Assembly (NCBI GenBank): GCA_024232855.1
Contig: JAAEPH010000034.1
Span: forward strand, 1 to 52,206
Direction: 5' to 3'
Length of the DNA stretch: 52,206 nt
Source of the DNA: Gammaproteobacteria bacterium
GTDB taxonomy: Bacteria > Pseudomonadota > Gammaproteobacteria > GCA-001735895
Below the pieces are notes generated by a model. It was not told the DNA's origin and made no database searches. It saw only the letters and a list, made by a program, of their open reading frames with translations. Made by a program: the position numbers and the translations under genes. Positions 12,407 to 14,557 of the stretch are shown here, piece by piece; position 1 is the stretch's first letter, and every line of letters starts with the position of its first letter.

Positions 12407-12526
12407 ACCGGACCGGGAGGGGCAAATCGCGATCGCCAGCAGCAGCTTGTTGAAACGGCTACCCGGGATGACCCGCAGGCACCGCCACCGCGGCAACCGG
12501 TTTCACCCGTGACCGTCAACGGCATT

Positions 12527-12555
12527 TTGACTTCCGGCGGAAAACATTATTAAAT
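12527..12555 (+). promoter_or_regulatory. Putative sigma-70 promoter for the channel/coiled-coil pair
   Basis: TTGACT (12527-12532, five of six to consensus) is followed after exactly 17 bases by TTAAAT (12550-12555, four of six). The predicted transcript would start near 12562, about 50 bases before the ATG at 12612. It suggests that the two-gene module has its own promoter, separate from the transsulfuration genes. Pattern match only. Confidence 0.5.
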
Positions 12556-12611
12556 GCCGGATCGACTACGCTCGATGATTGCGTTTTCCAATTAAACCTG
12601 AGACCCACGCG

Positions 12612-13559
12612 ATGGATATTCAGCGCCTGCTTACCAGCCTTAGCACCAGGATACTGCTCCAGTTTGGCGTGGTTATCGTGGCCGCCATCGTTCTGGTCGC
12701 GGTCAATTTCGACTTTATCTATCCGTTTTACGCCGAGAATCAGCTCACCAGTACCGGCATTGTCATCAACAGCGCTATCCTTGCGCTGTTCCTGCTCGGC
12801 ATCGGCAACATCGTATATCATCTGCTGCGCTACCGGCGTGAAGAGGCGGCCATCGCCGCATTCATCAACAACGTCGAAGCCCTCAGGTCGGATTACATAG
12901 AGGGACTTCGCGCCGACTCGATCATCGCACGACGCCACGGCACCATGCGCACCATTCAGAAATCAAACGGTGAAATCAATCACAGCGCCCTGGCGGCGAT
13001 GCTCAACGCCGACGAATCCACGCGCTTTGGACTGATTCGTTTTATCAACAACATCCTGATTCTCACCGGTGTCTTCGGAACCATCGTATCGCTTTCGATC
13101 GCCCTGCTCGGGGCTTCCGACCTGATCGACTCGGCCGACGCCAGTCTCGGCGGCATGGGGCTGGTCATTCACGGCATGTCGACCGCCCTGTCGACGACCA
13201 TCACCGCGATTGTCTCCTATACCATTTTCGGCTATTTCTACACTCGCCTCGGCGACGTGCAGACGCACTGCCTGGGTGGCGTCGAACACCTGACCTCGGT
13301 CTACCTGTTACCGCATTACGTCAAGAGCAGCGACGACATCGTGCACAAGATGACCGACCTGATAAAGTCGGTGGTGCTCGCCGCGGACAAGCTCAACCAG
13401 ACTCAACAGATCTACCACGATGCGGCAATCACCCTGCAACAGACGATTGCCGCCGAACAGGAGCAGGCGAGCCGGTTTGAGCTCGAGCTGGAAGGTATCA
13501 AGCAGATCCTGCGTGAAGGTTTCCGCTTGCCGGCTGAGCGACACGACGACAAACTGTGA
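12612..13559 (+). CDS. MotA/TolQ/ExbB-like proton-channel family membrane protein
   Basis: A 315-residue protein with four predicted membrane helices: ~13-32, ~46-70, ~142-166 and ~184-210, with cytoplasmic loops and a soluble C-terminal tail rich in helix (~240-305). Helices 3 and 4 resemble the pore-forming core of the TolQ/ExbB/MotA/ZorA family. Helix 3 has LTGVFGTIVSLSIALL and helix 4 has STALSTTITAIVSYTIFGYF, with conserved-looking small residues and threonines. These proteins form pentamers that let protons or sodium ions through and rotate or push a dimeric partner. The partner is the next gene, whose GTG start overlaps this stop by four bases (GTGA), showing tight coupling. ATG 12612 is preferred to the upstream TTG at 12579. 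It is neither a standard MotA nor TolQ by length or sequence; function unknown. Confidence 0.8.
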   Translation: MDIQRLLTSLSTRILLQFGVVIVAAIVLVAVNFDFIYPFYAENQLTSTGIVINSAILALFLLGIGNIVYHLLRYRREEAAIAAFINNVEALRSDYIEGLRADSIIARRHGTMRTIQKSNGEINHSALAAMLNADESTRFGLIRFINNILILTGVFGTIVSLSIALLGASDLIDSADASLGGMGLVIHGMSTALSTTITAIVSYTIFGYFYTRLGDVQTHCLGGVEHLTSVYLLPHYVKSSDDIVHKMTDLIKSVVLAADKLNQTQQIYHDAAITLQQTIAAEQEQASRFELELEGIKQILREGFRLPAERHDDKL

Positions 13560-14557
13560 ATAACGGCTTCGTCCAGATCGGCACCCACCACCACGCCGGC
13601 ATCGGAGGCGAAAACAGTTTCTGGCCGTCTTTCACCGATGTCATGATGGTGATTACGCTGATCTTCCTGATGGCCACCAGTATCCTGGTGGTGCGCAACT
13701 GGCAACTGGTCGCCGAATTGCAGGAAAGCGTTGCCGCCGAACGCATGGCGGCGCAGTTGATCGAATCCACCTCGATGGAAAACGCAACCCTGGAGGAGCG
13801 TCTCGCCAACGCCGAGCAGAGCAATTCGATCCTGCGGCTGCGCCTGTTGAAAAAGGCCGAGGAACTGGCCAATGCGCAGATCGCGATACGCGACCAGGAT
13901 TCGAGCCTTGCATCGCTGCAACAGCAGAATCGCGAGCTGCAATCATCGCTCGAGCAAACCCGCGCCGAGCTGGATGCCGTCAATCTCGAGATCAATGCGG
14001 CAACCTCACAGTTCAATGAAATGGCGCAACAGATCGCATTGTTGAATCAGAAACTGGCGCAACAACAGGCGCAAGGTGATCAGGCGCGCTCCGAGCTCGA
14101 AAGCGCACGCGTCGAGATCGCCGAACTATCCGCGTCAAGCAGCCAGCAACAACAGAACATCAGTCAGCTGACGCAGGAAAAAAAATTACTCGCGCATGAG
14201 ATCAGCGCCTACAACCAGCAATTGCTGACCCTGAAAGGCGACTACGAGACGATCAAATCGAAGTATGAGGAATTGATAAAGCCGGCGCGCAGCGCCAAAG
14301 GCAAGCACATCGCCCAGGTCTATTACGTCAAGGACGATTCCGGCACCGTGATTCGTTATCGTCAACCCGGCGACACGGAATTCAGCCGGCTCAGCCTGGT
14401 CGAGGTCGAGGAACGCCTGACAAAGTTGAAGCGCGAATACGGCAAGGATCTTTACATCAAGATCATCATTCCCGAAAACAGCGGCCTGACCTACAACGAA
14501 GCCTGGGAATTTATGCGCCATCTACTGGTCAAATACGACTACTACTACCAGGATTGA
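13556..14557 (+). CDS. ExbD/MotB-like stator partner with long coiled-coil stalk
   Basis: A 333-residue protein with three parts. Residues 1-21 are a short cytoplasmic leader. Residues 22-46 are one membrane helix, FWPSFTDVMMVITLIFLMAT, with an aspartate (D28) just inside it, at the position of the ion-carrying Asp of ExbD, TolR, MotB and ZorB. Residues ~50-243 are an almost uninterrupted coiled coil rich in Gln, Glu, Ala and Leu. Residues 244-333 form a small globular domain whose VEVEERLTKLKREYGKDLYIKIII pattern (positions ~280-305) is like the periplasmic fold of ExbD/TolR. It has no OmpA-like peptidoglycan-binding motif. The coiled coil would be roughly 25-30 nm long if continuous, enough to cross the periplasm. 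GTG start overlaps the channel gene by four bases. Function unknown. Confidence 0.78.
   Translation: MNNGFVQIGTHHHAGIGGENSFWPSFTDVMMVITLIFLMATSILVVRNWQLVAELQESVAAERMAAQLIESTSMENATLEERLANAEQSNSILRLRLLKKAEELANAQIAIRDQDSSLASLQQQNRELQSSLEQTRAELDAVNLEINAATSQFNEMAQQIALLNQKLAQQQAQGDQARSELESARVEIAELSASSSQQQQNISQLTQEKKLLAHEISAYNQQLLTLKGDYETIKSKYEELIKPARSAKGKHIAQVYYVKDDSGTVIRYRQPGDTEFSRLSLVEVEERLTKLKREYGKDLYIKIIIPENSGLTYNEAWEFMRHLLVKYDYYYQD

Follow-up and report, generated by a model that had tools for sequence, protein, structure and literature searches.

A putative two-protein ion motor with a coiled-coil axle of periplasmic length and a TolR-like head in Gammaproteobacteria

Two overlapping genes, here called A and B, lie on the forward strand of contig JAAEPH010000034.1 from a gammaproteobacterium, within the 52,206-nucleotide stretch of DNA that was analysed as a whole (the window). 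Gene A (positions 12612 to 13559, + strand) starts with ATG and encodes 315 amino acids, and gene B (13556 to 14557, + strand) starts with a GTG that overlaps the stop codon of A and encodes 333 amino acids. A check of the open reading frames found both at these coordinates, joined by the GTGA overlap that the preliminary description of this DNA had reported, and the same −4 overlap is also seen in 32 related loci. Based on the evidence presented below, A is assigned as a four-helix ion-channel (pentamer) subunit of the ExbB/TolQ/ZorA/MotA superfamily, and B, from its reading frame, its conservation and the comparison of loci, as a single-helix axle subunit with a long coiled coil and a TolR/ExbD-like head.

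A promoter-like element, TTTTGACTTCC-N5-AAAACATTATTAAATG (12525 to 12556, + strand), in which TTGACT and TTAAAT are separated by 17 bp, is located 55 bp before the start codon of A. It is nearly unchanged across the loci of the same genus, whose flanking sequences diverge, and it stays with A where the directly upstream gene differs (L042 and L052). With up to 3 mismatches allowed, the genome contains this single site, and no regulon sharing the element was thus found. A strict sigma-70 consensus scan reported no promoter before A, because the −10 box is TTAAAT; despite this, the conserved element supports the putative promoter that had been proposed for the pair. Since the element is conserved, linked to A and present in a single copy, the pair is probably its own transcription unit. 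It should be noted that the 32-bp element is near-invariant well beyond the −35 and −10 hexamers, and may also be the site of a regulator.

Protein A had been described as a MotA/TolQ/ExbB-like channel protein with four membrane helices. Its AlphaFold model is all-helical (pLDDT 85), and four membrane helices are indicated by the model together with the charge pattern: loops 1-2 and 3-4 contain no lysine or arginine, and loop 2-3 and the tail contain ten each, which fits four membrane helices with both the N terminus and the tail on the inner side. In the structural search for the TolQ/MotA fold, the best 41 PDB matches (Foldseek ranks 1 to 41) are all chains of ExbB, TolQ, ZorA or PomA. With VIA-align, A matches ExbB (5sv1) with Z 13.3 and rmsd 3.6 over 207 residues, TolQ with Z about 12.5, ZorA with Z about 11 and up to 245 residues aligned, and MotA with Z about 9; helical bundles can reach Z 13 by chance, but the assignment is persuasive because all of the top 24 entries belong to one superfamily. 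The predicted structure confirms for A the ExbB/TolQ/ZorA/MotA fold. At the level of sequence the similarity is faint: the Pfam family MotA_ExbB (PF01618) scores 16.3 bits on A, below the curated cut-off of 22.9, and is matched by 56 of 62 relatives at E ≤ 0.1 (best 8.2e-6), while the comparison of profiles of 24 to 30 sequences with TolQ and ExbB is borderline (E 2e-4, probability 20%). Single-sequence hhalign against the TolQ, ExbB and ExbD of the same genome was uninformative, except in the GxxGT region of ExbB.

Helix TM3 (residues 140 to 170; 13029 to 13121, + strand) contains T157 in the motif GVFGTI, and helix TM4 (residues 178 to 214; 13143 to 13253, + strand) contains T196 in HGMSTALSTT; both helices are placed by conservation, the model and alignment. 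The two threonines are invariant in 62 relatives, T157 in register with T144 of TolQ and T125 of ExbB from the same genome, and T196 with T177 and T158, respectively. The cytoplasmic helical tail that follows (residues 215 to 305; 13254 to 13526, + strand), delimited by conservation, the model and a coiled-coil periodicity of 3.52, ends at the invariant G303-F304-R305, and its length is near-constant, being identical in 64 of 81 sequences. In L025 and L041, as well as in L024, L040 and L042, the tail is longer by about 43 residues, apparently owing to an internal duplication, with the same GFR end.

The place of ZorA among these structural matches, the weak PADLOC matches of the pair, which are to ZorA and ZorB, and the similarity of the A tail to a short ZorA tail raise the question of a Zorya-like envelope sensor, possibly acting in phage defence, in which the head of B would sense a disturbance, the rod would transmit it, the channel would open and the A tail would signal inward. 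The ZorA2 profile, however, has no match in the genome, and both the head of B and the distribution of the pair bear on this question, as described below.

Protein B contains one membrane helix, in which Asp28 (13637 to 13639, + strand), an aspartate invariant among 45 B sequences, lies in the motif FWPSFTD. It aligns with the aspartates of the TolR (D20, PYIDVMLVLLIIFMV) and ExbD (D21, PLIDVVFLLLIFFMV) encoded by the same genome, in agreement with the earlier placement of an aspartate at the ion-carrying position of ExbD and MotB; single-sequence hhalign of B detects similarity to TolR in the membrane helix only, and profiles of 24 to 30 sequences brought no gain for the parts of B. By fold and key residues, A and B are members of the superfamily of 5:2 motors, in which MotA, TolQ or ExbB is combined with MotB, TolR or ExbD.

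The membrane helix of B is followed by the long periplasmic coiled coil that had been noticed at the outset, about 195 residues from about residue 46 to 242 (the annotated feature covers residues 48 to 242; 13697 to 14281, + strand). Its hydrophobic period is 3.50, with none of 2000 shuffled sequences as strong, and a period of about 3.5 recurs in all 104 B relatives, whose coils total 20,961 residues with one proline and no cysteine. To describe the length of the rod, we used the distance from Asp28 to the invariant proline opening the head in 104 distinct B proteins. This spacing takes 24 values between 173 and 439 residues, and modulo 7 it equals 5 for 17 lengths (96 proteins) or 2 for 7 lengths (8 proteins), with no other remainder. 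On a tree built without the coil, 41 length changes are needed. Multiples of seven make up 31 of these, and the remaining 10 equal ±4 modulo 7, which corresponds in phase to an 11-residue (hendecad or stutter) step; the other four classes are empty, and family length thus varies by heptads or by one 4/11-residue phase step only. As a rough, motif-based control, the linkers of 21 TolR and ExbD proteins from the same class have no phase preference. Such phase dependence of coiled-coil insertions is known from Gcn4 and Smc (PMC5344682). Because all spacings and all changes obey these remainders, the membrane helix is connected to the head by a single unbroken coiled coil, a result that concerns continuity and register and does not imply rotation.

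A rise of 0.1485 nm per residue would give the rod of B a length of about 29 nm here, 23 nm in the shortest relative and 62 nm in the longest. The longest coils, of up to about 420 residues (about 62 nm in L070), are found in L070, L071 and L079 and lie far beyond an ordinary periplasm; consequently, the head need not be at the outer membrane in every species. These three loci also have in common a small open reading frame after B (126 to 143 amino acids, no Pfam family).

The head (residues 243 to 333; 14282 to 14554, + strand) ends with an invariant YDYY. The last 104 residues of B were predicted alone (pLDDT 83.5), and in VIA-align the top match of this model is TolR 5by4 (Z 7.9, 88 residues, rmsd 2.9), followed at ranks 2 to 4 by ExbD 8p9r, 8vgd and 8vgc with Z 5.8 to 6.1 and by unrelated proteins at no more than 5.4. 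A Z below 8 is not decisive in general, but the match is credible because TolR and ExbD are the partners of exactly those proteins that match A. Foldseek alone did not place TolR or ExbD in its top rows for the head, and it was the second look with VIA-align that ranked them first. No significant match links the head to ExbD or TolR by sequence, whether with Pfam or with single-sequence and 24- to 30-sequence profile comparisons: Pfam gives no credible family for the head, ExbD being matched in 3 of 56 members (best E 0.018). Sequence-profile searches of the PDB returned coiled-coil or chance matches only. Pfam also gives no OmpA-family match in B. The head is therewith best described, from its predicted structure, as TolR/ExbD-like and not OmpA-like; the ExbD-like end claimed for B holds in structure, with TolR and ExbD as the top four matches, and is undetectable by sequence. 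This also speaks against the Zorya-like sensor, since ZorB carries a peptidoglycan domain of the OmpA/Pal type.

The neighbours of the pair in the window are genes for sulfur-amino-acid enzymes, a mandelate-racemase-type enzyme, an FAD oxidoreductase, an acetyltransferase and a radical SAM protein, and no TonB, TolA, Pal, flagellar or Zorya genes (including ZorC, ZorD and ZorE) were found nearby. Across about 70 loci, A and B are adjacent in nearly all, and neighbourhood clustering revealed no third gene that recurs across lineages. The neighbours are lineage-specific, and housekeeping genes in every lineage examined, for example, the genus has CBS and Cys/Met genes at this place, a sister group has mlaC on the upstream side, another group has thiC, and Mariprofundus has obg-proB-proA and nadD. 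The gene mlaC, which encodes a periplasmic protein of phospholipid transport, is directly upstream of the pair in L043, L045, L046, L047, L049 and L051, and a few genes downstream in L068 and L080, a proximity that possibly hints at a lipid-related role.

Elsewhere the same genome encodes TolQRA-TolB (L173), ExbBD (L174) and two further MotA_ExbB genes, so A is the fifth such gene in one cell, and the pair is not a standard Mot, Tol or Exb set, as had been maintained. One of the loci of this genome, L175 (G000:C213), holds a MotA_ExbB gene that is closely followed by two ExbD-type matches and preceded by a gene for a large protein, and perhaps resembles the multi-TolR motor clusters reported previously (PMC12204202). 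Could the pair then be a diverged TolQR or ExbBD that depends on an unlinked transducer of the TolA or TonB type at the side of the A ring? The best structural matches are indeed ExbB/ExbD and TolQ/TolR, and the tol operon of the genome encodes a TolA-like protein. However, no transducer gene is recurrent near the pair, four membrane helices are predicted in A instead of three, and a head at the end of so long a rod would lie a great distance from the near-membrane site at which ExbD and TolR are bound by TonB and TolA. Therefore, this possibility appears highly improbable.

The gene for A is present in 28 of 31 genomes of the genus and in all 5 others of the family, in 55 of 369 genomes sampled across Gammaproteobacteria, and in 28 of 398 sampled across the phylum; 27 of the latter are outside the class and fall in two families, which, judging from the named loci, are most likely Zetaproteobacteria. 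Almost all matches have E < 1e-70, the exceptions being partial, so the A family is discrete, and the A proteins of Zetaproteobacteria are grouped together on one side of a branch. The pair is chromosomal and single copy, and the phage and plasmid collections contain no match to it. It is a core pair with a vertical-looking distribution, apparently inherited on the chromosome. One assembly (JASJCI01) holds two copies (L050 and L095), and the N terminus of B in L050 is Sedimenticola-like and not of the genus type.

Some members of the Mariprofundus group have A and B at separate loci, or have a head-less B beside A. Nevertheless, a B was found in each of the 16 genome entries tested from this group, of which four appear to duplicate others, and where A and B are unlinked this B has a long open frame; that is, A and B are retained together even where they are unlinked. 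For example, in L098 (G432), L100 (G438) and L099 (G588), A lies between proA and nadD and a long-frame B is found elsewhere, and in L097 and L098 a head-less B is kept beside A in addition to a second long-frame B in the genome.

Two jobs had been offered for the pair, a mechanical envelope machine and a defence-related sensor lacking its effectors. The second is disfavoured, since the pair is single-copy, near-universal in the genus and family, deeply conserved, surrounded by housekeeping genes and absent from the phage and plasmid collections. With no ZorC, ZorD or ZorE nearby and the TolR-like head described above, we regard the Zorya-like sensor as very unlikely. The first is favoured, because the rod is about as long as the periplasm is wide and no transducer is associated with the pair.

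The computed features, namely the fold of A, the ion-path residues, the continuity of the coil, the fold of the head and the pair's own promoter element, could be arranged into the following mechanism. By analogy with the superfamily, the stoichiometry would be 5:2, with a B dimer whose two membrane helices are enclosed by five A subunits. Protons or sodium ions would move between Asp28 of B and the threonine ring of A (T157 and T196), and their passage would turn A and B relative to each other. Outside the membrane, the two B chains would run in parallel as a single rigid coiled coil of about 29 nm (23 to 62 nm in the family), and its tip, a dimeric TolR-like head, would lie at the opposite side of the periplasm. 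There, the head may engage peptidoglycan or an outer-membrane partner, and force would reach the distal envelope without a separate TonB or TolA transducer, while the cytoplasmic pentameric tail of A would fix or regulate the A ring. We put the probability of such a two-protein, ion-driven 5:2 motor, whose rod-like axle ends in a TolR-like head and acts on the distal envelope, at roughly 60%; as to the process served, envelope maintenance would be our guess. A more specific version, in which the pair is a periplasm-spanning rotary drive shaft, the Asp-bearing dimer itself being the trans-envelope transducer that carries torque through the phase-locked coil as far as the outer membrane, where the TolR-like head sits, and needs no third protein of the TonB or TolA kind, for a core envelope process in Gammaproteobacteria and Zetaproteobacteria, is proposed tentatively and may well be wrong.

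MotB and TolR are thought to bind peptidoglycan statically. Then, could the head of B be a static anchor on the peptidoglycan, the A ring rotating with a cytoplasmic output through the A tail, which would drive or gate a partner, and the coil serving as a spacer? In structure, the head comes closest to TolR, and the A tail has a conserved length with an invariant GFR end, in contrast to the widely varying length of the B rod. However, no conserved cytoplasmic partner is encoded next to the pair, and a rod of 23 to 29 nm is longer than required to reach peptidoglycan close to the inner membrane, as judged from general cell-envelope dimensions. Consequently, such an anchored stator or clamp seems rather unlikely, and we prefer the motor acting on the distal envelope.

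It is helpful to compare the pair with the known motors. The 5:2 ion motors of known output rely on an additional transducer protein (TonB, TolA), on anchoring to the cell wall (MotB) or on a shaft of several domains (GldM). With TolQ-TolR the pair shares the fold of A, both channel threonines, the aspartate of B and, as the best match of the head, the periplasmic fold of TolR; it differs in the four predicted membrane helices and coiled-coil tail of A, in the coil of about 195 residues in B, and in having no TolA, TolB or Pal beside it, TolQRA-TolB being encoded elsewhere. A finds its best structural match in ExbB (5sv1, Z 13.3) and the periplasmic domain of ExbD matches the head with Z about 6, whereas the pair has no TonB, has a long rod and shows barely detectable sequence similarity, and the ExbBD of this genome lies at another locus. 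MotA-MotB is alike in the four helices of A and the aspartate of B, but MotB ends with an OmpA-like domain, of which none was found in B, no flagellar genes are nearby, and the structural match is weaker (Z about 9). ZorA-ZorB is alike in the fold of A, its cytoplasmic tail and the weak PADLOC matches. The peptidoglycan domain of ZorB is OmpA/Pal-like and the tail of ZorA is elongated (PMC11890865), whereas the pair has no OmpA/Pal-like domain, no effectors and no sign of mobility. By defining partner genes or output domains, therefore, the pair is not TolQR, ExbBD, MotAB or ZorAB.

In its manner of working, the pair would resemble ExbBD and TolQR and, as regards the shaft, GldLM. In GldL-GldM of type 9 secretion and gliding, the dimeric axle GldM forms an 18 nm periplasmic shaft (PMC9389320); by description, this shaft consists of four domains and not of a coiled coil with a TolR head. 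In TolQ-like motors with von Willebrand factor A (vWA) axle proteins, the Asp-bearing axle itself may carry the output domain (PMC12204202), which is vWA there and TolR-like on a long coiled coil in B. Surveys have listed unstudied motors with vWA axles (PMC12204202) and diverse "generic ion transporters" (PMC12505986), and we found no description of this pair, or of a coiled-coil axle with a TolR head, in the open-access literature. Most likely, the pair is a further 5:2 motor, not found described, that acts on the distal envelope, and its existence means that trans-envelope motors have not yet been fully catalogued. It is a chromosomal core pair across genera in which an ExbB/TolQ-type ring is combined with a TolR-type head and one unbroken, periplasm-long coiled coil, and the strict heptad quantisation makes it directly testable if torque passes along such axles and with which rotational phase.
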